A stretch of DNA of 15,352 bases, from contig BDTG01000014.1 of NCBI GenBank assembly GCA_002897695.1, positions 1 through 15,352 of the forward strand. Direction: 5' to 3'. Shown in pieces: positions 645 to 13,880 of the stretch (positions are counted from its first letter, which is position 1; each line of letters begins with the position of its first letter). The translations under genes and the position numbers were made by a program. Origin of the DNA: a bacterium BMS3Abin14 (GTDB lineage Bacteria; BMS3Abin14). Below the pieces are notes generated by a model. That model saw nothing but the letters and a program-made list of their open reading frames with translations, searched no databases and was not told the DNA's origin.

Positions 645-2237
645 CTAAAATCCTGACGGTTGTCCGTTCCCGCGAGGATCAGCGGCTCCTTCGATCAAAC
701 CATCCGGATGTTTAACAACGGCTCCGGCATGCCCCATGACTTCGTCGAAATCACCCAGGATCTCCACATCGTGACCGGCGTTCCTTAAAGCCTTCAGAAC
801 TTCGGTGTCGAACCGGTTCTCAATGCGAAGGTTGGTTGCACTGGCCCCCCAAGTCCGCCCGAGTAACCAGCGTGGTGCTGTGACTGCCTGCTGCAGTTCC
901 TGACCAAAAAGGACGTATCTGGCGAAAACCATGGCCTGCGTCTGGGGCTGGCCCTCACCTCCCATGGTTCCGTAAGATACCACACGTCCATCGCTCAGCT
1001 GTGCCAAAGCAGGCTGAATAGTGTGGAAAGGCCTACGGTGGGGAATCAGACTGTTGGTGTGATCAGGGTCCAGGCTGAAGCTGACGCCCCGATTCTGCCA
1101 GGTGATCCCGGTTTCCGGCAGGACCACGCCGGAACCGAACTCCCAGTAAATGCTCTGAATGAAACTGACTATCCTTCCCTCACTGTCTACGGCGCCCAAC
1201 CAGACCGTGTCCCCGGAGTCCGCCTTTTCATGCCAGGGCAGGGCATGGTTCGGAGAAACCTCTGATGCCATGGCGTCGAGGGACTTTGTTGAAAGGAAAA
1301 TTGCCGGATCCACATCCATGTACTCAGGGTCGGTGACATATCTGTCCCGGATCCTAAATGCCCTTTTGGTGGATTCCACCAGCCCATGCACAAAATCGAA
1401 ACCTTCGACTTCGGTAATTCCCAACCTGTCAAAAACCCCCAGCAGGATCAGGGACGCCAGCCCCTGGGTCGGAGGCGGCATATTGTAGACCCGGTGCCCG
1501 GCCACCTCTACAGACAGAGGCCTTACTCTGAGGGCACGGTGCCGATGAAGATCTGCCAGGGCAACCGGTGATCCTGCGCGCTGAAGTTCGGCGGCGATAG
1601 TGTCAGCCAGAACCCCCCGGTAAAAGCTGTCGAATCCTTTTTCAGCCAGCAGTTTCAGGGTCCGGGCCAGGGCAGGCTGGCGGAACCGGCTCCCGACATC
1701 TGGCGGTTTTCCGTTTTCCAGAAAGTTAGCGGCAAAACCCGGTACATCCCTGAGTTCATCCAGCTTGGCAACAGTATTGACCGCCTGGGTTCGCGTCACC
1801 GCGACGCCGTCCTGGGCGAAAAATGCGGCATCTTCCAGGATCCGTGACAGAGACAGATGGCCACCGAGCTTCTCGGAGCTGAAGCGATGAGCTTCCTGCC
1901 AGCCGGACACTGCCCCGGCCACCGTCAATGCGGCAAGAGGGCCACGGCTCGGGATCGAATCCAGACCTTTTCTCTTGTAGAACTCGATATCCGTCCTGCC
2001 TGCGGCGCCGCCGCAGGCATCGATGCCTGCGATTTCACCGTCCGGGGTGTGGATCAACCAGAAGTTGTCGCCTCCGAGGGCGTTCATGTGGGGATAGACC
2101 ACAGCGATGGTACTGGCCGCTGCGATCATCGCCTCCACCGCGTTTCCACCGTCCTCCAGCACCCGCAACCCGGCCTGGGCCGCCAGATGGTGGGGGGCGG
2201 TTACCATACCCCTGAATGATCGGACCGTTTGCAGCAT
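645..2237 (-). CDS. hpxW: Gamma-glutamyltransferase-family Ntn hydrolase, probable oxamate amidohydrolase (HpxW-like)
   Basis: The family consists of self-cleaving N-terminal-nucleophile hydrolases. HpxW splits oxamate to oxalate and ammonia. With the ATG at 2237 the product has 530 residues. This start is preferred because GAGGAG stands just upstream. An in-frame TTG at 2267 has no ribosome binding site and would add 10 residues. The N-terminal part has RGMVTAPHHLAAQAG, GGNAVEAMIAAAS and YPHMNALGGDNFWLI. The self-processing site is most likely SGDT|VWLGAVD, giving Thr344 as nucleophile (from ATG2237). It is followed by FGSGVVLPETGITWQNRG, PHRRPFHTIQPAL and GTMGGEGQPQTQAMV. The APHHLAA, YPHMN-LGGD-FWLI and GGEGQPQTQ stretches look closer to HpxW than to glutathione-type enzymes. 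No signal peptide is seen, which fits a cytoplasmic hydrolase. It is the last gene of the oxamate carbamoyltransferase operon, 39 bases after allH. A gamma-glutamyl hydrolase of other specificity remains possible. Confidence 0.8.
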   Translation of the reverse strand: MLQTVRSFRGMVTAPHHLAAQAGLRVLEDGGNAVEAMIAAASTIAVVYPHMNALGGDNFWLIHTPDGEIAGIDACGGAAGRTDIEFYKRKGLDSIPSRGPLAALTVAGAVSGWQEAHRFSSEKLGGHLSLSRILEDAAFFAQDGVAVTRTQAVNTVAKLDELRDVPGFAANFLENGKPPDVGSRFRQPALARTLKLLAEKGFDSFYRGVLADTIAAELQRAGSPVALADLHRHRALRVRPLSVEVAGHRVYNMPPPTQGLASLILLGVFDRLGITEVEGFDFVHGLVESTKRAFRIRDRYVTDPEYMDVDPAIFLSTKSLDAMASEVSPNHALPWHEKADSGDTVWLGAVDSEGRIVSFIQSIYWEFGSGVVLPETGITWQNRGVSFSLDPDHTNSLIPHRRPFHTIQPALAQLSDGRVVSYGTMGGEGQPQTQAMVFARYVLFGQELQQAVTAPRWLLGRTWGASATNLRIENRFDTEVLKALRNAGHDVEILGDFDEVMGHAGAVVKHPDGLIEGAADPRGNGQPSGF

Positions 2238-2276: not shown

Positions 2277-3227
2277 TTAATTATTCGGCGTGGCGGGACT
2301 GTTTTCTCTGGTCTCCACCCAAAGGCGATAGACAATTACGATACCTGCCAGCATATCCCAACCCGAGGTATGGCCGATCTTTTCGATCTCCTTCAAAACA
2401 TCCGGGAAACCATTGAGGTTGCCTGAATGTATTGTGTTCATGACCCTGTGGGCCGCCTCACTTCCCATCCCTTCCATGGCCGTCCTCAGGTGGGCGGCAC
2501 TGATGGGATGTGTTCGTTCAGTAATGATCTTCGCAACTGCTGCTGACATGGACCTGACGACCGCGGCCTGCCCAAGGCTGTGGAGGGCCAGCATCATACC
2601 ACCTACCAGATCATCGCCTGATGGTGTCAGCCCAGGGCCAAGTCCCAGCAGGTCCTGCCAGGCTGAGACATTCGGGTCCCCGGCATCCTGCGGATCGACC
2701 AACGATTCCCTTAACCAGCTCTTTAACCTTTCCAGAGGTTTAAAGGCATATCCCAGCAAGTGACCGTTAATGGGACTCCCGGGCTCCAGGGGATACATAA
2801 GCCGTCCCAGTCCTTCCGTTTGAATCCGCCCGGCCATCAACACATCCAGGGCTAAAAGACCTTCTCTTACTTTTTCGAAACACGGATCAATGGGGAAAGA
2901 AGGTCTCCAGATACGAGCCTGGTCCAACGTCAGGGAAAAGTGTCCCCCGATCCTGACCTGTCCCCGGAAAACACTTACCAGCATACCGGTGCGAAAACAG
3001 TGTGATGACCAGGCGTTGCCCTCCGGGATCGAAGTGATGACGTTCAGCGGGCACATACCCAGCGACTCAGCGCCTACACAGATATAATTATCCTCAATTA
3101 CGCAATAGATGCTGCGGTCGAAAACCGTGTCAACAAAGCCTTGACCGGGTCTCCCGAGGGTGCGGGCGGCTACAGTCCCCATCCGTGAAACCCCGTATCC
3201 TGTTTGAAACTGTTCACTGAACTTCAT
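2277..3227 (-). CDS. allH: DUF2877 protein, oxamate carbamoyltransferase subunit (AllH/YlbF-like)
   Basis: The product has 316 residues and is soluble, with no signal or membrane segment. The family signature is LLGLGPGLTPSGDDLVGGMM at about residues 193-212, the typical glycine-rich core of DUF2877. E. coli YlbF (AllH) belongs to this family and works with AllF and AllG in oxalurate phosphorolysis to oxamate and carbamoyl phosphate. The order here, allG-allF-allK-allH, keeps all partners adjacent. A GTG at 3230 directly precedes the ATG at 3227. Neither has a convincing Shine-Dalgarno sequence, and the start lies inside the 3' end of allK (14-base overlap), so translational coupling is likely. 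The function follows from the E. coli assignment and the neighbours, and catalytic residues are not known to me. The substrate could be another carbamoyl compound. Confidence 0.82.
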   Translation of the reverse strand: MKFSEQFQTGYGVSRMGTVAARTLGRPGQGFVDTVFDRSIYCVIEDNYICVGAESLGMCPLNVITSIPEGNAWSSHCFRTGMLVSVFRGQVRIGGHFSLTLDQARIWRPSFPIDPCFEKVREGLLALDVLMAGRIQTEGLGRLMYPLEPGSPINGHLLGYAFKPLERLKSWLRESLVDPQDAGDPNVSAWQDLLGLGPGLTPSGDDLVGGMMLALHSLGQAAVVRSMSAAVAKIITERTHPISAAHLRTAMEGMGSEAAHRVMNTIHSGNLNGFPDVLKEIEKIGHTSGWDMLAGIVIVYRLWVETRENSPATPNN

Positions 3228-4191
3228 CACAGACGATGTGCGTGCCGGTTTCGCCGGACAGAGCTTCCATCGCTTTTTCCAGGTGACCGATTATGACACG
3301 CTTGCCGCCTCCATCGAGGAACCGTATAGCAGCCAGAATCTTCGGCCCCATGCTTCCTTCAGCAAAATATCCTTCATTATAATAGGTGCGCAGTTCGTCC
3401 AGAGTCACATGGTCCAGATCCCTCGAATCAGGCTTGCCGAAGCGAACCACCACCTTTGGGACAGAGGTCAGGATAAGCATGTCCTCTATGCCAAGGACGT
3501 TTCCCATTAAGGCCGACGTATGATCCTTATCGATGACCGCTTCGACGCCTCGCCTCACACCCTTTGGCCCCCTGACTATAGGGATGCCGCCTCCCCCTCC
3601 CGCGATGACGACGGTACCTCTCTGGGCCAGAGCCTGGACAAGCGAAATATCACATATATGCAGCGGCTTTGGTGACGGGACCACGTGACGCCAACCACGC
3701 CCGGCATCTTCCTTCATGAGCCAACCGATCTCCTGAGATATCTTCCCGGCATCTGATTCGCTGAAAAAAGGACCGATCGGTTTGGTCGGGTTCTCGAAAG
3801 CCGGATCCTCAGGATCGACCTCGACCTGCGTTAGCAGACAGGCTACATGTCTCGGGCTGCCCGCTTCGCGAAGGGCATTTTCCATAGCCTGCATCAGCAG
3901 GTACGCTATGCCACCCTGGCTATGGGCTACGCAGATATCAAGGGACATGGGGGGAATGCGATCCCGGGTAAGGACCTGGCGCATAAGGATCTTCCCGACA
4001 ACCGGCCCGTTACCATGGGTCACAACTAGCTCGTTGTCAAAAAGGGTGAGAGGCAGCAGCGCTCTGGCCGTGTTGGCGGCGATGGCTATCTGCTCGTCCG
4101 ATGTCCCTGTGATATTTTCCGGGTGCGTCGCGTTACCACCGATTGCAACCAACATCCGCGAGGGAAGCCCTATTTTCTGTGAAGTAGACAT
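3214..4191 (-). CDS. allK: Carbamate kinase (AllK/ArcC family)
   Basis: This 325-residue protein of the amino-acid-kinase fold transfers phosphate between carbamoyl phosphate and ADP, yielding ATP, NH3 and CO2. Family landmarks are VAIGGNA (about 15-21), VVTHGNGPVVG (56-66), CVAHSQGGIAY (87-97), the lid stretch NPTKPIGPFF (134-143), VVIAGGGGGIPIV (194-206) and AVIDKDHTSALMG (218-230). The length is usual for ArcC. The ATG at 4191 has GGGAG seven bases upstream. The gene starts 3 bases after the allF stop and overlaps allH. In E. coli the carbamate kinase encoded beside fdrA-ylbE-ylbF (ybcF, allK) captures the energy of the carbamoyl phosphate released from oxalurate, and the same role is inferred here. 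No arginine deiminase or ornithine carbamoyltransferase gene is nearby, which argues against an arc role. Confidence 0.93.
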   Translation of the reverse strand: MSTSQKIGLPSRMLVAIGGNATHPENITGTSDEQIAIAANTARALLPLTLFDNELVVTHGNGPVVGKILMRQVLTRDRIPPMSLDICVAHSQGGIAYLLMQAMENALREAGSPRHVACLLTQVEVDPEDPAFENPTKPIGPFFSESDAGKISQEIGWLMKEDAGRGWRHVVPSPKPLHICDISLVQALAQRGTVVIAGGGGGIPIVRGPKGVRRGVEAVIDKDHTSALMGNVLGIEDMLILTSVPKVVVRFGKPDSRDLDHVTLDELRTYYNEGYFAEGSMGPKILAAIRFLDGGGKRVIIGHLEKAMEALSGETGTHIVCDEVQ

Positions 4192-4194
4192 GGA

Positions 4195-5694
4195 TTATCT
4201 CCCTTTTTTTATACAGGCCAACGCAAGGAGGGCTGCATCCACATTGGATGGCGCCACCAGCACACCGGCATTTTCCAGGCACTTGACCTGGGATGATCGG
4301 TTCTGGATATCAGCGTCGGTCCCGGTGACCGACGTGATTACCAGGGGACCGTCGTTATTATAGTTTCCGAGTGTGGAGACCAGATGACCGGCAGGATCCT
4401 GATGAGCCCCGTACCCGATGACGATATCAACCAGAACGACACCGACCTTTGGGTTGTCCATGGCTCTTTGAATGCCATCGTCACGTACAGCCGGGTCGAT
4501 CATGGGGTGAGGACGGCCCAGGGTGTAAGCATCCTCTCCAAGATCAATGAAATGGTGTCCCCTCTCAACTTCTTCAATCTGCGAGACACCAGGTACGGGG
4601 GCATTGGAGCTCAGTGCCTCACCGGCATCGAGGAATATCAGCTGAGCCTCAGCACAGAGGGTGCCGCCCGAAAACAGGCCTATGACCTCATTCCGCCCAT
4701 TGGAGAGGCCGACAGCTGACCTGGACACGTCAAAATCGTCGAAGATCGATTTGCCGCCGAGCGCCGACTGTGCAGCGGCCTTCAAGGTCGGAGCCCGAAC
4801 GGCGTTATCGGGCAGTTCCAGCTCAGACAGGCCAAGGTAACAGATGGTAAAATTTTTTGAGCTTGCCTTGATCTTTTCCATGATCCTCTCGGCCACAGAC
4901 GGTCCAGGTGATTTAGAGACCAGCACGATGTGACGGGTTTTGGAATCCTCCTCCAGAGCTTCAAGAGCCATCATGGTGGAGATGCCCCCGACTTCTTCCT
5001 TGAGATCACGTCCGCCGACCCCTATGGCCTGAGAGATGCCACCGCCGCTGCGGCTGATCAGGCACGAAATCTCCTGGATGCCCGTTCCGGAAGCACCGAT
5101 GATGCCGATGTCTCCGTGATTAACCTTGTTGCCAAAAGCAAGGGCCGCACCGCTGATGATCGTTGTTCCGCAATCAGGACCCATCATCAACCGGTCAAGC
5201 TCTCGAGCTTCTCTTTTCAGCTGGATCTCCTCCGAGAGAGGCACGTTATCACTGAAGATCATGACGTGAAGACCCTTATGCAGAGCTTTTCTCGCTTCCG
5301 CCCCGGCAAACTCCCCGGCTACCGAGATCAGGGCAAGGTTGACGTCCGGTGCCGATTTAACTGCGGAAGCAATGGTCCTGGGCCGCAACGTCGCACCTTT
5401 TCCGCGTATGACCTTCGAATTGGCAAGCAGGTTCACCGAGCCTTCCAGCGCCTTGTCTGCAGCCTCCCGGCTCACCGCGCGGATGCCGATGATAAGATCA
5501 CGACCTGAAGCGTTCTCTCCTTCAGCCCCCAGAATACCGGCCTCTTTCATAATCTCTTTGTTCGATGGCGTTCCTATCATGAGGGCCGATTCCTCAACAC
5601 CTTCCAGTTCGGAGATCGTGCGGGAAAGTCTCATCAAGGCCACCGAATCCAGGAAAAATCCCGTTCGGACCATGTTTACCACTACACTTTTCAT
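4195..5694 (-). CDS. allF: FdrA-family protein, oxamate carbamoyltransferase subunit (AllF)
   Basis: This 499-residue protein has the succinyl-CoA-synthetase-alpha-like architecture of FdrA. Visible motifs are GPDCGT (172-177), the nucleotide-binding-like IGIIGASGTGIQEISCL (196-212), AIGVGGRDL (223-231), KSPGPSVAERI, and near the C-terminus VVLVDIVIGYGAHQDPAGHL and VITSVTGTDADIQ. FdrA was long annotated as an acyl-CoA synthetase. In E. coli it is now assigned as AllF, a component of the transcarbamylase acting on oxalurate/oxamate. The start ATG overlaps the allG stop as ATGA, so the two are translationally coupled, as expected for subunits needed in fixed ratio. The gene is followed 3 bases later by allK. 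Family assignment is secure, while the reaction is inferred from the complete four-gene set. Confidence 0.9.
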   Translation of the reverse strand: MKSVVVNMVRTGFFLDSVALMRLSRTISELEGVEESALMIGTPSNKEIMKEAGILGAEGENASGRDLIIGIRAVSREAADKALEGSVNLLANSKVIRGKGATLRPRTIASAVKSAPDVNLALISVAGEFAGAEARKALHKGLHVMIFSDNVPLSEEIQLKREARELDRLMMGPDCGTTIISGAALAFGNKVNHGDIGIIGASGTGIQEISCLISRSGGGISQAIGVGGRDLKEEVGGISTMMALEALEEDSKTRHIVLVSKSPGPSVAERIMEKIKASSKNFTICYLGLSELELPDNAVRAPTLKAAAQSALGGKSIFDDFDVSRSAVGLSNGRNEVIGLFSGGTLCAEAQLIFLDAGEALSSNAPVPGVSQIEEVERGHHFIDLGEDAYTLGRPHPMIDPAVRDDGIQRAMDNPKVGVVLVDIVIGYGAHQDPAGHLVSTLGNYNNDGPLVITSVTGTDADIQNRSSQVKCLENAGVLVAPSNVDAALLALACIKKGR

Positions 5695-7127
5695 TTAGCA
5701 CCTGCCCTTCCGGCAAAAGCTTCAAGTGCTTTCTCGAAACATGCCATAGGCGCGCGCGCTACGCCTGCACCGACCTGCCCCACCCCCGGTTTTTTGTGGG
5801 CCATACCAGTGTTGATCGTAGGCACCAGTCCCGTTTCAACAACGAGATGAATGTCGATCCCGGTGGGAACGCCGGTATAGTCCATGGCAGGGATGGTCCA
5901 CTCCAGATTTTCACCCACTGTGATCTCCGCCATGGATCGGGTGAAATTGATGGCGTCGGCCGCCATACCGGCCCCCACAAATCCTGCCACCGAAGGGGAG
6001 GCGGCCATGGCAAAACCACCTAGGCCGACTGTTTCCAGAATGCTTGAATCACCCATGTCAGGGTTGGCATCATCTTCAGTAAAGCCCGGGAAGTAGAGCC
6101 CTTTTGGCATTTCCACCGGGGCCGTGAACCACTCATCACCGGTCGCGCTCACACGGACGCCGAAATCCGTCCCGTTGCGGGACATGGCGGTGACCACACA
6201 CGCATTCTCAATACCGGCCACCGGGTCCATGATGGCTTTCCCCATGGCCATGGCGATATTCAGGAAAAACTGGTCATTTCCACCGATAAAAGCCAGGGCA
6301 CGCTCGAGGGCATTGACATCCGATGACGTTCTGGCCAAAGCCGGCGCAAGTTCCTTGAGTATCAGACCGGTGCACCCGACGTTCCGCTGGTGCATTTCAT
6401 CCCCCATGGAAAGACCTCGCGCCACGAGGTTTTTCAGGGGAATCCCTCCCATGTTTCGAAGAGCTCCGCCAAGGGCCGGCCCGAACTCATCCCTGAGCCA
6501 CCTCAGCCGGTCCAGAACCTCCTCATCGTTTCCACCGAAACGCATGACCTTGCCCAGCCCCTCGTTGATGGTGCAGAAGGAACGGTTGCCGAACTTCCTG
6601 TTCTCGACCACAAGAACCGGTTGGCTCACAGTGGTCATTCCGGTCATGGGTCCAACTGCCCCGTGGTGATGGTTCGGTGAAAATTCAAACGCTCTCCCGG
6701 CAGCCATTTTTTCAGCGGCTGGAAGATCAGGCGCCCACCCCTCGAACACCGCGATCCCGGCAATAGCTCCGCGGAGCGGCCCGCACATGCGATCCCATCC
6801 GATGGGCGGGCCGGCGTGAAGGATCATGCGGTCACCTAGCGTCGGGATGGCCTCTTTCGCGGGCACCACATCCACCAGGACCGGGTCCGCGGAAACCATC
6901 CGCTCGAACGCTTCACTGTTAGCCTTTTCGATCTTGCCCTTAACAGCGCCGGAACCCAGTTTCTCCAAAAGGCCGACCATCTCTGGATTGCCGCCTGCCG
7001 GTGGCAACCAGTCCATGTGGGTCACCGGCACATTCTGGGACTCCAGTGCATCAGCGAACTCCTGGAGCCCTACATTGATAACTTGCAGAGGTTCTGTGAG
7101 AAGTTTGGAAATATTTTTCGGATTCAT
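5691..7127 (-). CDS. allG: DUF1116 protein, oxamate carbamoyltransferase subunit (AllG/YlbE-like)
   Basis: The product has 478 residues from the ATG at 7127, which follows an AAGGAAGG ribosome site. An upstream in-frame start at 7223 would overlap the end of dctM and add a non-conserved cysteine-rich extension, so it is rejected. The N-terminus reads MNPKNISKLLTEPLQVINVG, and the motif NVPVTHMDWLPPAGGNPEM (about 32-50) is typical of YlbE/DUF1116. Later stretches include FSPNHHHGAVGPMTGMTTVSQPV, GNRSFCTINEGLGKVMRFG and GNDQFFLNIAMAMGKAIMDPV. The protein is cytoplasmic. In E. coli AllG acts with AllF and AllH. The ATGA overlap with allF and the 40-base gap after dctM tie transport and catabolism into one transcript. 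Family assignment is firm and the exact substrate is inferred. Confidence 0.9.
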   Translation of the reverse strand: MNPKNISKLLTEPLQVINVGLQEFADALESQNVPVTHMDWLPPAGGNPEMVGLLEKLGSGAVKGKIEKANSEAFERMVSADPVLVDVVPAKEAIPTLGDRMILHAGPPIGWDRMCGPLRGAIAGIAVFEGWAPDLPAAEKMAAGRAFEFSPNHHHGAVGPMTGMTTVSQPVLVVENRKFGNRSFCTINEGLGKVMRFGGNDEEVLDRLRWLRDEFGPALGGALRNMGGIPLKNLVARGLSMGDEMHQRNVGCTGLILKELAPALARTSSDVNALERALAFIGGNDQFFLNIAMAMGKAIMDPVAGIENACVVTAMSRNGTDFGVRVSATGDEWFTAPVEMPKGLYFPGFTEDDANPDMGDSSILETVGLGGFAMAASPSVAGFVGAGMAADAINFTRSMAEITVGENLEWTIPAMDYTGVPTGIDIHLVVETGLVPTINTGMAHKKPGVGQVGAGVARAPMACFEKALEAFAGRAGAK

Positions 7128-7167
7128 TGAACCTTCCTTTCCATTGTCAGATTCCGTCGAGACTACC

Positions 7168-8454
7168 TTATACGATCCCCTTGTAAACCATCCGGGGCAG
7201 CCACATGCTAACTTCGGGTACATAGGTCAATATGGCCAGTGCTATGAGCGCCAGAACAATGAAGGGGAGCGATCCCCGAACGGCCTGTATATAATCCACG
7301 TCGCCAAGCGAACTTGCTACAAACAGGTTAAGACCGAAGGGGGGAGTGAACATGCCTACAGCGCCGTTTACAGTCAGCACTGCTCCGAGATGGATGGGAT
7401 TAATGCCGACCTGAATACCGATCTTGTAGAACAGCGGCGCGAGGATGACCATGATCGAAGCGGCGTCAATGAACATGCCGACGATCAGGACCGTGACGTT
7501 TATCAGGAAGAACACATGGTATGGGTTGGAGCTCAAGGACAACACAGAATTGGCGATGGTTAGAGCCAAGCCCTGACTTGTCAGGAACCAGGACAATACG
7601 GAAGCGGCGGACAGGATGATCATCACCTGGGCCGTGGTAACGGCGGCATTCTTGATGGCGCCAAATAGTTGGGTTACTGTGGCTTCCTTGTAAATGAGCG
7701 CCGAGATGGCCAGGGAATAGATCACCGATGCCGCGGCGGCTTCAGTAGGGGTGAACACTCCCATATAAATCCCACCCAAAACGACTATGGGCACACCAAG
7801 GCCCCATGAGGAATCTTTCAGCCCTTCCCAGAGCTGCTTTCTGCTTGGCGGCGGCGAGGGAACGACCCCGTCTTTTCGGGCCTGATAGTAGCAGTAGGGC
7901 AGGAAACATAAGCCGTAAAGCAGGCCGGCGCCGACCCCAGCCATGAAGAGAGCGCCCACCGAGACACCGGTGACCGCCGCGTAGACGATCATGACTATGC
8001 TCGGGGGGATGATTATCCCGATGGAACCGGAAGCTATGATGACACCAATGGAAAACGGCTTGTTGTATCCCTGGTCCTTGAGGGCCGGGTACAACAGCGA
8101 GCCGACGGCGACGACAGTGGCCGGGCTGGAACCCGAGATGGCGCTGAAAAACATACTCGAGGACACTGCCGTCATCCCCATGCCGCCGGTGAAACGTCCC
8201 ACCAGCAGGTTGGCCAGGTTCACAATCCTTCGTGAAAGTCCTCCAACATTCATGAGATTCCCGGTGAGGATGAAAAACGGAATGGCCATCAGGGCAAACT
8301 TGTCGAGACCAGCGAACAACCTTTCCACCACAATAGCAGGCGGAAGGTTCCCTCCCACCAGTATGGCGCCGAGCACCGAGCCGGAAAGGGCGATGAAGAT
8401 CGGCACACCCAGGACAAGAAAAACAACAAGCAGTAAAAAAAACAGAGTGATCAT
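7168..8454 (-). CDS. dctM: TRAP transporter large permease subunit (DctM family)
   Basis: The 428-residue, very hydrophobic protein has about 12 predicted membrane segments, the usual size for DctM. Typical stretches are VFLVLGVPIFIALSGS near the N-terminus, DKFALMAIPFFILTGNLMN, SAISGSSPATVVAVGSLLYP, GSIGIIIPPSIVMIVYA, GVFTPTEAAAASVIYSL and GAVGMFTPPFGLNLFVAS. DctM is the Na+-coupled translocating subunit in the inner membrane and pairs with DctQ. The ATG at 8454 lies 4 bases after the dctQ stop, indicating coupling. The substrate is set mainly by DctP. Location directly before allG suggests that it imports the substrate of the carbamoyltransferase module. Confidence 0.95.
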   Translation of the reverse strand: MITLFFLLLVVFLVLGVPIFIALSGSVLGAILVGGNLPPAIVVERLFAGLDKFALMAIPFFILTGNLMNVGGLSRRIVNLANLLVGRFTGGMGMTAVSSSMFFSAISGSSPATVVAVGSLLYPALKDQGYNKPFSIGVIIASGSIGIIIPPSIVMIVYAAVTGVSVGALFMAGVGAGLLYGLCFLPYCYYQARKDGVVPSPPPSRKQLWEGLKDSSWGLGVPIVVLGGIYMGVFTPTEAAAASVIYSLAISALIYKEATVTQLFGAIKNAAVTTAQVMIILSAASVLSWFLTSQGLALTIANSVLSLSSNPYHVFFLINVTVLIVGMFIDAASIMVILAPLFYKIGIQVGINPIHLGAVLTVNGAVGMFTPPFGLNLFVASSLGDVDYIQAVRGSLPFIVLALIALAILTYVPEVSMWLPRMVYKGIV

Positions 8455-8458
8455 ATCC

Positions 8459-8968
8459 TTATCCTATGCTCTCCAGATGGGATTCCATTTTGTTGCCAAC
8501 GGTTAGACGCCATATCTGCTGGGCGAAGCGAAGAGCCATAAGGCCGGCACCAAAGGGAATGGCCAGTTGCACCATCCACATGGGCATCTGCAGCGCTGGG
8601 CTGACCTGTCCGAACATTCTGGTCTGAATGATCAAAGCGGCACCGTAGTAGACGATGAAACCGCAAAAGACCAGGGAGATCACATTGATCAAAATGTTAA
8701 TCGGTTTGCGTAAGGGCCGTGGCGCGAACCTCACAAGGAGGTCGACCCCGATGTGGAGCCCCTGCCTCGCGGCGACGCTACCGCCGAGGAACACCATCCA
8801 GATGATCTCGTAACGAACCAGCTCCTCAGCCCAGGGGAAACCCCAGTTGAACACGTAACGGGCAATAATGTTGGCGAACAGCACTAGGGATGCGGTTGTC
8901 ATTAGAACCCCGAGCAGAAATTCTTCAGTCTTTGATAGAACCGCGTCCAATTTAGACATTTTTGTCAT
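8459..8968 (-). CDS. dctQ: TRAP transporter small permease subunit (DctQ family)
   Basis: The 169-residue protein has four hydrophobic segments at about residues 14-36, 48-66, 88-110 and 130-150. The DctQ signature IIARYVFNWGFPWAEELVRY, followed by IIWMVFLGGSVAARQGLHIG, is clear (about 29-74). It forms the membrane complex with DctM. The ATG at 8968 has only a weak ribosome site, and an ATG three codons later (MTKM) is an alternative. It is separated from dctP by a 91-base gap containing an 18-bp hairpin, which would favour higher DctP than DctQM production. Confidence 0.93.
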   Translation of the reverse strand: MTKMSKLDAVLSKTEEFLLGVLMTTASLVLFANIIARYVFNWGFPWAEELVRYEIIWMVFLGGSVAARQGLHIGVDLLVRFAPRPLRKPINILINVISLVFCGFIVYYGAALIIQTRMFGQVSPALQMPMWMVQLAIPFGAGLMALRFAQQIWRLTVGNKMESHLESIG

Positions 8969-9006
8969 AACTCAACCCAGGCCTGTTTTAGAATTAATGC
9001 CTCCAA

Positions 9007-9046
9007 TTTGAAGCCTGCAGCCTCCAGCGAGGCTGCAGGCTTCAAA
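9007..9046 (-). promoter_or_regulatory. 18-bp perfect hairpin between dctP and dctQ
   Basis: TTTGAAGCCTGCAGCCTC (9007-9024) is followed by the loop CAGC and its exact reverse complement (9029-9046). The hairpin lies 13 bases beyond the dctP stop and 38 bases before dctQ. On the minus strand no T-run follows, so it is not a standard intrinsic terminator. By position it resembles intercistronic hairpins that protect the upstream binding-protein mRNA or dampen downstream expression. Partial termination is also possible. Confidence 0.8.
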
Positions 9047-9059
9047 CCATGGGGCTTAA

Positions 9060-10091
9060 CTATTTACTGTCCTTCTTGATTTCCTGATAGAAGGCGTCCA
9101 GAAGGTTCTGGCCTATCTGGTTAGCGAACTTCTTGTAAACGGGACGAGTGGCTTCCTGGAATTTCACCAGTTGCTCCGGACTGAGCCGGGTAACGATGGT
9201 TCCGCTCTCCCGGATCGTCTTGAGGTACCCTGCCTCACGTCTTGCGGTCTCCTCACGCTCGAAGCTCGTCATCTCCCGTGCAGTGTCAACAAGGATCTTC
9301 TGATATTCCGGCTTCAGTCCGTCGAACCACTTCTTGCTGAAGACGAAAGCGTAGCCAAGGTACGCGTGGTTGCTGATGATCAGGTTCGACTGGACTTCGT
9401 AGAACTTCATCTTGGTGATGGAAACGAGGGGGTTCTCCTCGCACTCCACCACGTGTTGCTGAAGGGCGTTGTAGGTTTCGCCAAAGGAGATGGGCACCGG
9501 ATTCGCACCGAGAGCCTTGAACTGCTCCATGATTATGGGGCTCTGCATGACCCGGACCTTGTAACCCTTGAAGTCCGAGGGTTTCTGAATAAGATGGTTG
9601 CAGGTGAACTGCTTGAATCCGCTCTCCCAAAAGGTGACTCCTTTAAGGCCGACCTTGTCAAGGGTGGCAAGAAGCCTGTCGCCGGTTTTGCTGTCAAGGA
9701 CTTTGTGGGCAACGGCAGGGGAAGGGAACAGGAAGGGCAAATCGATCAATTGCAGGGCCGGCACGAAATTGCTCAGCTTTGCCGTGGGAATGATGCCACC
9801 CTGAATGGCGCCGAACTGCATCTGCTGTGTCGCCTCCACGTCGTTTCCAAGCGCATTGCTGGGAAAGATCTTCACCTTGATCCCGCCGTTGGTTCTGTTT
9901 TCCACTGCCGTTTTGAACTTCTCAGCCGCCAGGTGCTGGGCGCTGTCCTCCGGAAGGTCGTGGTGGAATTTCAGCTCAATGGCCGCCGCGGAAATCCCGA
10001 TGGTGCCGAGGACGGCAGCCGTGGTCACCGCTATCACCATGAAAACCCTCAGAACATTTTGAGCCACTTCAGCCTTTTTCGACTTGATCAT
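9060..10091 (-). CDS. dctP: TRAP transporter substrate-binding protein (DctP family)
   Basis: The 343-residue protein starts with a basic stretch and a long hydrophobic signal segment (about 15-37, ending GISAAA), so it is exported to the periplasm, with cleavage probably near residue 37. The mature part begins IELKFHHDLPEDSAQHLAAEKF, typical of DctP. It contains GGIKVKIFPSNALGND, IQLIDLPFLF-like LQLIDLPFLFPS, FKGYKVRVMQSPI and FGETYNALQQHVVECEENPL. Arg180 in KVRVMQ matches the conserved arginine that binds the ligand carboxylate, so a carboxylate substrate is expected. The ATG at 10091 has AAAGGAG six bases upstream. The gene follows tetR by 22 bases and heads the transport genes. Oxalurate or oxamate is an inferred ligand from the downstream enzymes, and other ureide acids or unrelated carboxylates are possible. 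Confidence 0.94.
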   Translation of the reverse strand: MIKSKKAEVAQNVLRVFMVIAVTTAAVLGTIGISAAAIELKFHHDLPEDSAQHLAAEKFKTAVENRTNGGIKVKIFPSNALGNDVEATQQMQFGAIQGGIIPTAKLSNFVPALQLIDLPFLFPSPAVAHKVLDSKTGDRLLATLDKVGLKGVTFWESGFKQFTCNHLIQKPSDFKGYKVRVMQSPIIMEQFKALGANPVPISFGETYNALQQHVVECEENPLVSITKMKFYEVQSNLIISNHAYLGYAFVFSKKWFDGLKPEYQKILVDTAREMTSFEREETARREAGYLKTIRESGTIVTRLSPEQLVKFQEATRPVYKKFANQIGQNLLDAFYQEIKKDSK

Positions 10092-10113: not shown

Positions 10114-10683
10114 TCACCTTCTTACAGCATGCCATGTTGCTCCAATAGCCCGGTCTATAAGATCATCATCCAGGACCAGGAGGCCGGAATTGTGATCCAT
10201 TATGGCATTGATCATGGGACCAAAGGTCAGATCGAACAGCAGCATGAGAGGCAGTTCCTTGATGATCTGCTGCTCCGCGCCCTGCTTGAAAAGGGCGTGA
10301 AAAGGTTCAATATAACTGTCCAGTCTTCGCCTCAAATTCGCTACACCATATGGGGACATGGAATACTGCTCAACAAAGCTGAACTCCAGGGGATTTTCCA
10401 TAAGATACAGGTACATGTTGCGGCACAGGTGAAAAAACCGCTTCCTGAACGGCAGGTCCTCGGAATAGCCTTTCAGAATAAAGGTCCGCTGCCTGCTTTC
10501 AAGTTCACCATACAGAGCATGGATAAGTTCCTCCTTGCTCCTGAAATAACGATAGATGGTCCCAACGCTGACACCTGCCCGATCAGCGATCATGGACGTT
10601 GGAGATCCATGAAAACCGTTCTCTGCGATCATCTCCATTGTCGCCTGAAGGATGGCAGAGCGTTTATCAACTCTTTTAGTCAT
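10114..10683 (-). CDS. TetR/AcrR-family transcriptional regulator
   Basis: The 189-residue protein has the N-terminal TetR helix-turn-helix. ILQATMEMIAENGFHGSPTSMIADRAGVSVGTIYRYFRSKEELIHALY covers about residues 11-58, with the recognition helix in VSVGTIYRYF. The C-terminal ligand domain is not diagnostic of an inducer. It is the first gene of the leftward operon, 22 bases before dctP, so it probably represses its own operon. The immediate upstream DNA is not a native promoter: an ISL3 terminal repeat begins 13 bases before the ATG. A promoter with two TetR-type operators stands about 3.1 kb further upstream in the correct orientation, which suggests the control region was displaced. Ribosome site is weak. 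Family assignment is secure and the regulatory target is inferred. Confidence 0.93.
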   Translation of the reverse strand: MTKRVDKRSAILQATMEMIAENGFHGSPTSMIADRAGVSVGTIYRYFRSKEELIHALYGELESRQRTFILKGYSEDLPFRKRFFHLCRNMYLYLMENPLEFSFVEQYSMSPYGVANLRRRLDSYIEPFHALFKQGAEQQIIKELPLMLLFDLTFGPMINAIMDHNSGLLVLDDDLIDRAIGATWHAVRR

Positions 10684-10696
10684 AGCAATATTTTTC

Positions 10697-10926
10697 GGCT
10701 CTTCGCTGTTTTGAGTAGGTTAAAATGAGGGTTCAACCTTTCAAATATGGAGGTGCCCCTTATGGATATGAAGTTTCTGTTTGCGGAAGCGCCTGGATTG
10801 CCTCCCCCTTGGAAGGTGAAGGACTTGGGTTTCTCCATGGAGGACAAACACTTGGACATCACCATAGATTTTCCTCGTGGCAACACTTTCTCTTGTCCTG
10901 TCTGTGGTGTTGCCGGAGCCAAGTGA
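10697..10926 (+). mobile_element. ISL3-family left end with truncated transposase gene
   Basis: Terminal repeat GGCTCTTCGCTGTTTTGAGT (10697 on) is of ISL3 type. It shares TCGCTGTTTTGAG, TTCAACCTTTCAAA and ATGGAGGTGCCCC with a second copy at 13546. The segment runs through the transposase start and ends abruptly where an IS3-type end begins (10924-10926). The terminal repeat lies 13 bases upstream of the tetR start codon. Confidence 0.8.
10762..10926 (+). pseudogene. ISL3-family transposase, N-terminal 54 residues
   Basis: The reading is MDMKFLFAEAPGLPPPWKVK, then DLGFSMEDKHLDITIDFPRG, then NTFSCPVCGVAGAK and a TGA. This is the usual N-terminus of ISL3 transposases, including the first half (CPVC) of the zinc-finger. 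The full family protein is about 400 residues, so over 85% is missing. The TGA is formed by the first bases of an IS3-like end (TGACCTGG), so the truncation looks like an insertion into the gene. GGAGG precedes the ATG. Confidence 0.82.
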
Positions 10927-11084
10927 CCTGGTAAAGTAAAAATCGACACTTTTTTCAGCAACCTTTTTGAGAGCGACATCTCCTCAAATGTTTTTGGGCT
11001 CAGACATCCGAGGTAGGAATGACACCGCATGCAGTTGTAGAACATCTCCATGTAATCGACGATATCCAGACTCGCTGGTTCCAT
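10924..11084 (-). pseudogene. IS3-family transposase (OrfB) C-terminal remnant and IS end
   Basis: The minus-strand frame contains ASLDIVDYMEMFYNCMRCHS, then YLGCLSPKTFEEMSL. This is the C-terminal integrase signature of IS3-family OrfB (D.. .YIE.FYN..R.HS.LG.LSP..FE). The catalytic DDE residues are upstream and no longer readable. Beyond it, the minus-strand end ACTTTACCAGGTCA looks like the right terminus. On the + strand it starts TGACCTGGTAAAG directly after codon 54 of the ISL3 transposase. Homology is lost upstream of about 11084. Confidence 0.7.
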
Positions 11085-11149
11085 CCCGGCATGGTGTACA
11101 ACTCCCTGGCCGGACGACAGCGGAACTCGCTGTAGATGCCGGTCAGCTT

Positions 11150-11248
11150 ATGAACAGGCAGATTACGGGTCCGCCATATTTCGGGGTGTCCAAGCAACAT
11201 GGTATCGGCAATTCCAAATCGTCTGCGTTATTGCCAAAAACGGCCCAT
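11150..11248 (-). pseudogene. Possible IS200/IS605-type TnpA N-terminal remnant
   Basis: From an ATG at 11248 preceded by AGGAAAGGGG, the minus strand reads MGRFWQ and then stops. One frame over, it continues ITQTIWNCRYHVAWTPR. The N.RYHV.W.P motif resembles the start of Y1 (IS200) transposases. A single frameshift would join the two. No further TnpA sequence (HUH motif) follows. This is a weak call on about 25 residues. Confidence 0.35.
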
Positions 11249-11442
11249 CTGTTACCCCTTTCCTGATCTGTGGGGACAACTCAGGATTGGTTGTAACAAG
11301 GAGTCGTTCAGAAGGCAAAGCCCCGGAACCATAACCTTGCTCGGAGAGCAACGATTCCTGCATTCGATTAAAACAACTTCGGTAGACAAACCGTTTGAAG
11401 CGTTCGTCAAACTTCATACGCCCCGGCCTGCCCAAACAAGGG

Positions 11443-11490
11443 GGCAAGTGTGTCAGCCAAATTGCACCCCGGTGGCTGTACACACTTGCC
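11443..11490. repeat. Imperfect 17-bp inverted repeat (hairpin) beside DUF1097 gene
   Basis: GGCAAGTGTGTCAGCCA (11443-11459) pairs with TGGCTGTACACACTTGCC (11473-11490), with a single bulged base and a 13-base loop. It ends 17 bases from the DUF1097 stop codon (11507). It may be an IS end (subterminal hairpin) or act as a terminator of the DUF1097 transcript. On the minus strand no T-run follows it. Confidence 0.55.
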
Positions 11491-11506
11491 TTTCGGGACC
11501 CTAACC

Positions 11507-12010
11507 TTATTTTTCCTCCACCGGGAATGACAATTTAACATTCAGCCAAGCATAGATTGGACCTAGGAAATTCATGATGACCACGGCGATGAAAGCCGCA
11601 AATAAATTACCTTTCGTCGGTCCCCAGCCACCGAAATACGTTGCAAAATAACTGGCAAATCCGAAGAACATACCGGGAACAAACTGAAATAGCTTTGTCC
11701 GGCCAAGCGACATCATCAAAGCATTAAAGACAAAGATGATAATCATTTGGCCCAGAATACCCCAGTTACCCGGAAACATCGGTGCCGTAGTTTGTATTAC
11801 CAAAACGATAATCATGGCTGTAAACGAGCCCAAGGGCATAACCGGCCAAAGCTTTTTGAGGTTTTCTTTAGTGGGACCTCCGGCAGCAAATGTCCCGGCC
11901 CAGGTAATAAAGACAGCCCAGGGAGGAAAATTTGTCGGAGGCAGTGATAAGATAACCGTTGTTGCAGCTAAAACTGAAGCTACAATCTCAGAGGGAATCC
12001 GATTTTTCAT
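11507..12010 (-). CDS. DUF1097 family inner-membrane protein
   Basis: The 167-residue protein is strongly hydrophobic, with about five to six membrane segments. These are near residues 9-26, 30-44, 55-73, 80-97, 107-127 and 134-155. Glycine-rich stretches WAGTFAAGGPTKENL and TYFGGWGPTKGNLFAAF look like two repeats of one motif and are typical of DUF1097 (E. coli YcdZ-like) proteins. The function is unknown. It is 42 bases downstream of the cytosine-deaminase-like gene and on the same strand, so they probably form a two-gene operon in which this could move the amidohydrolase substrate or product (inference). The pair has lower GC than the neighbouring operon and sits between ISL3 ends. The ATG at 12010 has AGAGGTG upstream. 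Confidence 0.78.
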   Translation of the reverse strand: MKNRIPSEIVASVLAATTVILSLPPTNFPPWAVFITWAGTFAAGGPTKENLKKLWPVMPLGSFTAMIIVLVIQTTAPMFPGNWGILGQMIIIFVFNALMMSLGRTKLFQFVPGMFFGFASYFATYFGGWGPTKGNLFAAFIAVVIMNFLGPIYAWLNVKLSFPVEEK

Positions 12011-12052
12011 AACGTTTTACACCTCTTCCTTTCCATCATTTTTACCGTAATT

Positions 12053-13312
12053 TCACCGTAATTTTTCGGCCAATTTGGTCTCCAATTGATTTTCCACGAC
12101 TACCCTGCCGCCTTTAATTACATAGAGGGCAAGCGGTTGATCCTGAATTACATCGCATAACCTGCTGGAGTCAAACACAACCAGGTCCGCTTTTTTGCCC
12201 TTGGCAATGCCATAGGTATCTTCGATCCCCAGACACTTGGCAGCATTATAGGTAGCCATCTTCAAGACTTCCCGTTGTTGCTCGGCTGAACCCATGTGAT
12301 GTGTTTCCGCCAATAGATAGCCAATCGGTAGAAGGTTACCATTGCCAAAAGGCGTAAAGGCATTGCGAATATTATTGGAAGCAAAGACAACGTTAACACC
12401 ATGTTGCAACAGGGCCTGAACCGGTGCCATCCCACGCCGGACATTTTTCTTATCCTTACGCCCATTGAGATAAATATCCGTTGCCGGTAAAGGCATAATG
12501 GTTACATCGGCCTTGGCGATTTTGTCGAATAAGGGCCCGTGCTTGTCTACATCCAAGGCTCCAAGAGTTGTCACATGCCCCAAGGCTACCTTGCCTTGCA
12601 TGCCATAAGCCGTCGTCATGTCGCAAATGGTTTCCGTAGTCATATACCGTGGATCATCGACATCATCCGTAAAGTCCACATGCATATCCAGGGGCAAACC
12701 ATGTTTTTCTGCCATTTTAAAGACTATTTCCAGATGACGATTGGTGTCGTTAAGGTCTGTCTCGTTATAAGGACAAGCTCCGACAACATCAGCCCCCAGC
12801 CGGATACCTTCTTCCATGAGTTCCAGGGTATCGGGCGCTTTGATGATACCCTCTTGTGGGAAAACAACAATCTGCAAGTCAAGATATCCCGCGTATTTTT
12901 TTCGCAGCTCCAGCAGAGCTTGCACGCCAAGTAGCTTGGCAATCGGATCAACATCCGGATGCGCCCGCATGATTGTCGAACCATACATCATTGACCAACG
13001 CAGCACAGTCTCAGCCCGCTCGATCACATCATCTAAGGTATATTTTGCTTTTAAGACACCGGTATTATGGATAGCCTCAGCTAAGGTCCCGGAAACATTC
13101 GGCATACGTTCTTCCAGCAAGGCCTTGTCCGGATGCAGGTGACTCTCAACGAGACTTGGAATGACAACGTGACCCTGTATGTCAATAATTTCGATATCCT
13201 CCCCGCTCAAAATCTGCGGGGCTACCCCAGTTATTACCCCATCCTCGACAGATATATCCGTTAAGTCCTGGTCGTCGGAAACACGTGCGTTACGAAGTAA
13301 TAGATCTCTCAT
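12053..13312 (-). CDS. Cytosine-deaminase-like amidohydrolase (metal-dependent)
   Basis: The 419-residue protein belongs to the amidohydrolase superfamily, CodA-like branch. Landmarks are a small N-terminal composite domain (1-50), the metal pair ESHLHPDKALLEER with His58 and His60, LDMHVDFTDDVDD with His211, LGHVTTLGALD with His246, ASNNIRNAFTPFGNGNLLPI at 311-330, and the C-terminal GIAKGKKADLVVFD. In E. coli CodA the active site is His61, His63, His214, Glu217, His246 and Asp313. Here the Glu217 position appears to be Phe214 and Asp313 appears to be Asn313, so cytosine deamination is doubtful. Hydrolysis of another cyclic or open amide is possible. The ATG at 13312 has GGGAG upstream. DUF1097 follows 42 bases later. 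Lower GC and flanking ISL3 ends suggest acquisition by transfer. Confidence 0.85.
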   Translation of the reverse strand: MRDLLLRNARVSDDQDLTDISVEDGVITGVAPQILSGEDIEIIDIQGHVVIPSLVESHLHPDKALLEERMPNVSGTLAEAIHNTGVLKAKYTLDDVIERAETVLRWSMMYGSTIMRAHPDVDPIAKLLGVQALLELRKKYAGYLDLQIVVFPQEGIIKAPDTLELMEEGIRLGADVVGACPYNETDLNDTNRHLEIVFKMAEKHGLPLDMHVDFTDDVDDPRYMTTETICDMTTAYGMQGKVALGHVTTLGALDVDKHGPLFDKIAKADVTIMPLPATDIYLNGRKDKKNVRRGMAPVQALLQHGVNVVFASNNIRNAFTPFGNGNLLPIGYLLAETHHMGSAEQQREVLKMATYNAAKCLGIEDTYGIAKGKKADLVVFDSSRLCDVIQDQPLALYVIKGGRVVVENQLETKLAEKLR

Positions 13313-13376
13313 TTTAATACTCCCTTCTAATAAGAAATTATAAAAGGTAGCTTTGGTAAGTGTTATATAGCCCTTT

Positions 13377-13391
13377 ACCTACCTTAGGTAG
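13377..13391. promoter_or_regulatory. Small palindrome upstream of the amidohydrolase gene
   Basis: ACCTACCTTAGGTAG contains two overlapping short palindromes, ACCTA-CCT-TAGGT and CTACC-TTA-GGTAG. It lies 65 bases upstream of the amidohydrolase start. It could be an operator, but arms of five bases are weak evidence. Confidence 0.25.
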
Positions 13392-13396
13392 TTGAT

Positions 13397-13545
13397 GATC
13401 GGCCAAAATCCCTCCTTTCCTGTTTTGCCAAAGCAACACAATTATAATGGGTACAGACGCTGGATCGACGGCATTCTCCAGTTGCTGCACCACATTTATG
13501 AAAAGGCCACCCCCAAAAAGACCTTATGCAGACAAGTATATAAGG
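13397..13545. other. Stretch without a recognised gene upstream of the amidohydrolase
   Basis: On the + strand a frame without a start is open from 13397 to 13573, giving QHNYNGYRRWIDGILQLLHH and IYEKATPKKTLCRQVYKGF. It is protein-like but I do not recognise it, and it runs into the ISL3 end at 13546. It may be the tail of a gene cut by that element. On the minus strand a strong GGAAAGGAGGG stands before a 22-codon frame starting TTG at 13406. Confidence 0.3.
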
Positions 13546-13760
13546 GGTTCCTCGCTGTTTTGAGCGGGTAGATGATATTCAACCTTTCAAACATGGAGGT
13601 GCCCCGGAATCTATTACTCAATTCTGCAGTGACATGTCTCCCGTTTTCATCTCCGGCATAGAGGCGGGGGATACCGAATCAACAGGAACCTGGTCACCAT
13701 GGCTTATCTGATCGCTGGGAAGCTGCAATTCAATTTACCCACATGAAACAGCGAGGAACC
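13546..13760 (+). mobile_element. Internally deleted ISL3-family element (215 bp, MITE-like)
   Basis: The left terminal repeat starts GGTTCCTCGCTGTTTTGAG (13546) and the right end is GAAACAGCGAGGAACC (to 13760). Over 24 bases the two ends match as inverted repeats at 20 positions. Inside, the left part repeats the 5' leader of the ISL3 copy at 10697 up to GGAGGTGCCCC, and the right part encodes only the last residues of an ISL3 transposase. Everything between is deleted. No clear 8-base target duplication is seen at the immediate flanks (ATATAAGG versus GCCTTTTC). Confidence 0.82.
13669..13746 (+). pseudogene. ISL3-family transposase, C-terminal 25 residues
   Basis: The frame reads GYRINRNLVTMAYLIAGKLQ, then FNLPT and a TGA. 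The G(Y/F)RN...(L/F)..M.Y...GKL.F pattern is the usual C-terminal end of ISL3 transposases. It overlaps the right terminal repeat of the deleted element. A TGA in the same frame a little upstream (13629-13631) confirms it is not expressed as a protein. Confidence 0.7.
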
Positions 13761-13780: not shown

Positions 13781-13800
13781 ATGAGTGAACGCTCATTTAT
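13781..13800 (-). promoter_or_regulatory. TetR-type operator 1 (overlaps promoter start region)
   Basis: The + strand reads ATGAGTGAACGCTCATTTAT, an imperfect palindrome. Its reverse complement is identical to operator 2 at 18 of 20 positions. It touches the -10 box of the leftward promoter and would cover the transcription start, an ideal place for repression. TGAATGA..TCATTCA-like palindromes are common TetR-family sites. Which regulator binds is inferred: the only TetR-type gene in the window is the one at 10114-10683. Confidence 0.7.
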
Positions 13801-13828
13801 TTATAGATTAACAGGGCCTTATTGTCAA
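13800..13828 (-). promoter_or_regulatory. Strong sigma70-type promoter, leftward
   Basis: On the minus strand TTGACA (13828-13823), then exactly 17 bases, then TATAAA (13805-13800). This is a perfect -35, optimal spacing, and one mismatch in the -10. It points toward the amidohydrolase, DUF1097, tetR and the oxalurate operon. It is flanked by two near-identical TetR-type operators, so it is probably the displaced promoter of the tetR operon. Confidence 0.75.
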
Positions 13829-13833
13829 CAACT

Positions 13834-13862
13834 TTCCAATTCCGGCCTGTTTTTTGGATTAT
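13834..13862 (+). promoter_or_regulatory. Possible weak divergent promoter, rightward
   Basis: TTCCAA, 17 bases, GATTAT on the + strand. These are poor matches (about 3/6 and 4/6), but the -10 overlaps the first bases of operator 2, mirroring the leftward arrangement. A divergent control region is therefore possible. No intact gene follows on the + strand. Confidence 0.3.
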
Positions 13863-13880
13863 GAATGAACGTTCACTCAT
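13861..13880 (+). promoter_or_regulatory. TetR-type operator 2
   Basis: ATGAATGAACGTTCACTCAT is a 20-base palindrome with one mismatched pair (central TGAACGTTCA perfect). It is 18/20 identical to the reverse complement of operator 1. The centres are 80 bases apart. It lies 32 bases upstream of the -35 of the leftward promoter. Confidence 0.7.

Follow-up and report, generated by a model that had tools for sequence, protein, structure and literature searches.

In Escherichia coli, the activity of AllFGH has been proven and the pathway stops at oxamate, described as a dead end (PMC11326118). E. coli also has a paralogous AllH/AllF/AllG/kinase set with an amidohydrolase (yahEFG-yahI-yahJ), with neither an importer nor HpxW in the 15 kb read. 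Klebsiella pneumoniae has no AllFGHK (PMC11326118). Comammox bacteria and ammonia-oxidizing archaea possess allFGHK clusters that adjoin biuret genes and lack allantoin genes, and a paper that never mentions TRAP transporters proposes that these organisms draw on purine products from outside, oxalurate among them (PMC12625717). Here we analyzed a 15,352-base stretch of DNA (the window), which is one whole contig (BDTG01000014.1) of the 2.28 Mb, 49-contig genome of the bacterium BMS3Abin14 and which carries a candidate operon for the import and breakdown of oxalurate. The operon has the same four enzyme components as E. coli allFGHK, but in the order G-F-K-H rather than F-G-H-K, with a TRAP importer first, an HpxW-like gene last, and no allantoin genes. 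It shares this last trait with the comammox and archaeal clusters, which differ in standing beside biuret genes, and it has both the importer and the HpxW-like gene that the E. coli yah set lacks. Unlike K. pneumoniae, the encoded system would split oxalurate with a gain of ATP, and since HpxW follows, oxamate would not be a dead end as in E. coli. Each part is already known, AllFGHK from work on E. coli and HpxW from separate work on Klebsiella; what seems to be new is their union in a set that has both an importer and a finishing enzyme.

The nine genes are arranged head-to-tail on the minus strand in the order tetR-dctP-dctQ-dctM-allG-allF-allK-allH-HpxW-like gene (Table 1), and all nine reading frames are intact. 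A first-pass annotation had described a seven-gene operon from dctP to allH. All seven genes are present on one strand and each matches its family, but two more belong to the operon, the TetR regulator at its head and the HpxW-like gene at its end. The tiny gaps or overlaps described there are found at most junctions (TetR-DctP, 22 nucleotides; DctQ-DctM, 4; DctM-AllG, 40; AllG/AllF, overlap of 4; AllF-AllK, 3; AllK/AllH, overlap of 17; AllH-HpxW-like gene, 39), but not between DctP and DctQ, which are 91 nucleotides apart. For AllG, the start at 7127 is preferred over that at 7223, as it has an ATG and an AAGGA-type ribosome site; a GAGGAG ribosome site precedes the ATG of the HpxW-like gene. 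A complete syntenic copy of the operon occurs in another genome (locus L002), with protein identities of 68–87% (50% for AllH), which excludes a chance arrangement.

Table 1. Features of the window, with positions counted from its first base.
Feature	Coordinates	Strand	Evidence
TetR-family regulator, operon gene 1	10114–10683	-	PF00440; 77% identical and same position in L002
DctP, TRAP substrate-binding protein	9060–10091	-	TIGR00787, 268.6 bits; sole DctP match genome-wide
DctQ, TRAP small permease	8459–8968	-	Weak NCBIfam YiaM small permease match (45.3 against cut-off of 260); orthologs in L002, L021, L038, L073
DctM, TRAP large permease	7168–8454	-	TIGR00786, 409.9 bits
AllG, oxamate carbamoyltransferase subunit (DUF1116)	5691–7127	-	PF06545, 292 bits; 3CLQ
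AllG N-terminal piece resembling C-terminus of E. coli AllF/FdrA	6957–7100	-	Residues 10–57 match FdrA 3DMY 426–473; NCBIfam FdrA profile positions 499–554
AllF (FdrA), oxamate carbamoyltransferase subunit	4195–5694	-	NF004760, 477.6 bits (cut-off 433)
AllK-type carbamate kinase	3214–4191	-	NF009007, 329.6 bits (cut-off 266); 1E19, 292 bits
AllH, oxamate carbamoyltransferase subunit (DUF2877)	2277–3230	-	PF11392, 83.6 bits
HpxW-like oxamate amidohydrolase (Ntn hydrolase, gamma-glutamyltransferase superfamily)	645–2237	-	5HFT is the top PDB match, over both chains (A and B)
Putative promoter region with two TetR-type operators (13782–13797 and 13864–13879) around TTGACA-N17-TATAAA (~13800–13828)	13782–13879	-	
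Putative insert between promoter and tetR (amidohydrolase, DUF1097, insertion-sequence debris)	10697–13760		Border sequences and G+C content
Cytosine-deaminase-like amidohydrolase (AmdH), insert cargo	12053–13312	-	Pfam Amidohydro_3/Amidohydro_1; best PDB match 4R7W, cytosine deaminase
DUF1097 membrane protein, insert cargo	11507–12010	-	Pfam PF06496

This gene set probably constitutes a self-contained oxalurate salvage operon. In the proposed pathway, DctPQM would import oxalurate, AllF-AllG-AllH would phosphorolyse it to oxamate and carbamoyl phosphate, AllK would convert carbamoyl phosphate and ADP to ATP, ammonia, and CO2, and HpxW would hydrolyse oxamate to oxalate and ammonia, so that each oxalurate would yield oxalate, two ammonia, CO2, and one ATP. 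The first-pass annotation had proposed oxalurate uptake and use with a gain of ATP and ammonia, which is partly supported, but it had overlooked HpxW; with this enzyme present, the predicted end products are oxalate and two ammonia rather than oxamate and one ammonia. The operon offers a testable answer to two gaps, the oxalurate importer (TRAP) and the oxamate dead end (the HpxW step).

The enzyme part of the pathway, in which AllFGH, AllK, and HpxW are predicted to act on oxalurate and its products, is strongly supported. The AllFGH set is complete, with PF06545 and PF11392 above their gathering scores and NF004760 above its cut-off. Identities to the E. coli proteins are 49% for AllG, 42% for AllF, 34% for AllH, and 38% for AllK. 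The kinase is nearer to YahI (45%) than to AllK; it passed NF009007, while its score for the arcC model TIGR00746 (342.2) is below the cut-off of 358.25. In sequence identity, AllG is nearer to E. coli AllG (49%) than to YahG (43%), but the tree joins it to E. coli AllG with weak support (89/62, long branch). In the same tree, the AllGs of the window and L002 pair with each other (100/99), and the large clade to which they belong (93/96) contains 26 of the 34 rows linked to ureidoglycine-glyoxylate aminotransferase (UGXT) or allantoate amidohydrolase (AllC). Seventeen loci, L021 among them, were left out of the tree because AllG is divided there between two frames, one short and one long. The ~50-residue C-terminal piece of E. 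coli AllF sits on AllG in the window. More broadly, this piece of ~50–60 residues forms the N-terminal part of AllG in the window and in 27 further loci and stands alone as a small frame in ~60; five of the AllG loci that have no AllF do not have the piece either, as though it connected the two proteins.

The last gene links the window to the Klebsiella hpx uric acid pathway (HpxW, 5HFT). Its product matches both processed chains of 5HFT nearly end to end (335 and 275 bits; next PDB match, 281), and 5HFT is by far its best solved relative, suggesting an HpxW-like oxamate amidohydrolase. This PDB entry is titled gamma-glutamyltranspeptidase, and we take it to be Klebsiella HpxW, the oxamate amidohydrolase described by Hicks and Ealick in 2016. 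The Ntn mechanism needs an N-terminal nucleophile residue, here threonine, and Thr344 aligns with residue 1 of 5HFT chain B as the predicted nucleophile. The HpxW paper of Hicks and Ealick is cited in PMC5270733. A gamma-glutamyltransferase role was considered and rejected, as TIGR00066 scored 312.7 bits against a cut-off of 357.85 and the match to HpxW is far better.

An AllG search retrieved 80 loci, mostly from Alphaproteobacteria, and the neighboring proteins were clustered. UGXT, a class V aminotransferase that forms oxalurate, occurs in 34 of the 80 loci and in 24 lies directly before AllG on the same strand; its best solved match is the ureidoglycine-glyoxylate aminotransferase 3NNK (543 bits), followed by PucG (465) and a match at 302. 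HpxW is found in 32 loci and AllC in 28. Eleven loci read UGXT-AllG-AllF-AllK-AllH-HpxW, and in nine of these AllC comes directly first (as in the alphaproteobacterial loci L008, L023, and L025), which would complete a full path from allantoate to oxalate. These UGXT, AllC, and HpxW neighbors, together with the position of AllG in the tree, point to oxalurate as what the enzymes most likely act on. From AllG on, the window and L002 have the same order as these sister operons, with DctP-DctQ-DctM in front, so that TRAP occupies the position of AllC and UGXT. Import would therefore replace internal production: the sister operons make oxalurate from allantoate, whereas the window appears to import it. 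In four Afipia loci (L062, L064, L072, and L076), a single AllGFK set has an HpxW-family gene on either side; the second of these is only 40–41% identical to that of the window and may have another amide substrate.

The TRAP transporter is complete, with DctP and DctM above the cut-offs of their models and DctQ assigned by a weak match and synteny. Loci L002, L021 (Mesorhizobium xinjiangense), L038 (Aurantimonas), and L073 combine orthologous TRAP genes with AllG and HpxW. In the three searchable genomes among these, the linked DctP is 64–81% identical to that of the window, while the next-best DctP is 29–35% identical. A search led by DctP alone, over 530 genomes (394 and 136), found one further ortholog above 50%, in L132 (55%), which also lies beside AllG; a relative at 44% (L133) does not. 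The identities of DctP and AllG to those of the window fall in step (L002, 80/80; L073, 66/69; L021, 63/67; L038, 63/72; L132, 55/56). As the DctP-led search returned to AllG and the identities fall together, the link of TRAP to AllG is real but rare. The coupling of TRAP and all genes noted in the first-pass annotation is thus borne out in several unrelated genomes, though in just 4 of the 80 AllG loci. Over the AllG loci, TRAP is also linked to HpxW (p = 0.023, uncorrected and ignoring kinship).

One alternative is that the enzymes use oxalurate but the TRAP transporter imports another acid, such as a C4-dicarboxylate, ureidoglycolate, or oxamate, with oxalurate made inside the cell by an unrecognized enzyme. 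TRAP ligand specificity is unreadable from sequence, and the nearest solved DctP proteins bind dicarboxylates or sugar acids. The model of DctP (pLDDT 90.8) has the usual TRAP fold and gives no ligand. On the other hand, this is the sole DctP in the genome, it is placed where sister operons carry oxalurate-forming genes, and TRAP co-varies with AllG over five genomes. The absence of allantoinase, allantoate, and ureidoglycolate genes reported in the first-pass annotation holds beyond the window. Genome-wide, no full-length member of the AllC/hydantoinase-carbamoylase family was found (best 33.8 bits; cut-off 204), no allantoinase (AllB) was above cut-off (best 249.8; cut-off 357.85), and no gene of the AllD family was found; these searches covered AllC, AllB, and AllD, and UGXT was not searched. 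We consider import of another acid unlikely.

In a second alternative, TRAP would import a ureide that is cyclic or N-substituted, for example parabanate, and AmdH would open it to oxalurate before AllFGH acts. Relatives of AmdH (cluster c8) occur in 14 of the 80 AllG loci, in several directly before AllG; a gene of this kind is also part of the E. coli yah operon, and L132 reads AllG-AmdH-DctPQM. A title cited in PMC3364942 speaks of a transcarbamylase induced by parabanic acid. However, L002, L021, and L038 carry TRAP with no AmdH nearby, and the AmdH of the window lies in an insert of different composition. Parabanate opens without an enzyme at neutral pH (PMC5703782), and it has no carboxylate, the group by which TRAP binding proteins usually hold their ligands. 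Import of such a ureide is improbable.

Set against oxalurate import are several further points. The solved relatives of DctP are no more than 36% identical among the matches listed and bind C4-dicarboxylates or sugar acids or are unassigned, so oxalurate as the DctP ligand is what we infer. L132 pairs TRAP with an AllG core and an amidohydrolase and has no AllF, AllK, or AllH in 17 kb, which leaves room for another ligand. The rarity of TRAP beside AllG also counts here; exclusion between TRAP and UGXT/AllC (0 of 4 vs 40 of 76) is not significant (p = 0.12), because four TRAP loci are too few. The search for upstream genes described above was confined to AllC, AllB, and AllD, and the promoter is split from tetR by ~3 kb. 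Finally, no oxalyl-CoA decarboxylase in the genome exceeded the cut-off, so this route of oxalate use was rejected and oxalate would be a waste product.

Free oxalurate can also arise abiotically: singlet oxygen converts urate to parabanate, and at neutral pH this hydrolyses to oxalurate (PMC5703782). No description of an oxalurate importer was found in the open-licence papers searched. There is perhaps an even chance that DctPQM is the first dedicated one, representing a distinct TRAP ortholog group spread among distant bacteria along with AllFGHK and HpxW. Such cells would live on oxalurate that other organisms release or that singlet oxygen makes from urate, and each molecule would bring them one ATP and two ammonia with no other purine gene needed. 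If so, oxalurate would be traded as a nutrient, and members of this TRAP group could be annotated by ligand rather than as generic C4-dicarboxylate carriers.

A different concern is origin. While the operon proteins are 68–87% identical to those of L002 (AllH, 50%), RpoB of this genome shares only 61% identity with its counterpart in another genome from L002's order, L002's own genome having no RpoB match. The AllG pair of the window and L002 also sits among alphaproteobacterial sequences. Together these would mean lateral transfer or a misbinned contig, the latter being possible because the 15 kb window spans an entire contig. Close relatives of the genome lack this AllG type, and in a member of its genus (G001) AllG is 42% identical and lies in a different gene cluster; 16S rRNA was not found in the assembly. 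The operon could accordingly be a laterally acquired, poorly expressed remnant, as the insertion between promoter and tetR might also suggest, or a misbinned piece of another organism. The nine intact frames speak against this, as do the base composition and tetranucleotide profile of the operon, which resemble those of other contigs of the genome although they do not decide its origin. We regard a remnant or misbinned piece as quite unlikely. The proposed salvage of oxalurate is independent of origin, whereas the absence of upstream genes in the organism depends on it.

TetR may regulate its own operon through a promoter with paired operators. The pattern TRAGYRAACRYTCAKT has exactly two copies in the window and two in L002 directly before tetR, and among 153 fetched loci it occurs nowhere else except in sub-loci of these two; as the motif was derived from the same four sites (chance expectation 0.02 per source), these counts are descriptive. 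In L002, the two copies lie around TTGACA-N16-TATAAA, right before tetR. In the window, the promoter region is 3.1 kb upstream of tetR and is collinear with L002 over ~140 bp. This alignment is the best of 210 L002 windows but only ~2 standard deviations over shuffles, so the equivalence of the promoters rests on their shared architecture. The hexamers were read by eye; a promoter scan gave no match, because its rule requires the second hexamer to end in T.

The region between promoter and tetR is probably an insertion, since related insertion-sequence ends lie at both borders and its G+C content is 0.45–0.49, compared with 0.555 in the operon. Because the insert cuts the promoter off from the operon, expression here is uncertain. 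The operon may be transcribed through the insert or be poorly expressed now; the proposed salvage in this strain presumes that it is still expressed.

Other AllG loci differ in content. In Nitrospinota (L061, L067, L078, and L081) and L132, a cytosine-deaminase-like amidohydrolase adjoins an AllG core without AllF, AllK, and AllH; these loci carry branched-chain-type ABC genes and are a candidate AllG-only system. In L134, from the genus of the window's genome, positions 9130–16568 carry AllG-AllK-AllF, then genes for an FAD oxidase and an iron-sulfur CCG protein, and finally AllH; the oxidase and CCG protein are a candidate glycolate-oxidase-type ureidoglycolate dehydrogenase. AllG/FdrA pairs occur on many plasmids of Escherichia and other enterobacteria, mostly predicted conjugative. 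A plasmid origin of the TRAP set was rejected, as 72,556 plasmid records held no DctP match at E 1e-70. The ends of the contig (1–332 and 14071–15352) carry a piece of CoA-linked aldehyde dehydrogenase and, by eye, apparent remnants of genes for alcohol dehydrogenase and radical-SAM activase; from ~14772 on, the plus strand probably encodes a transposase.

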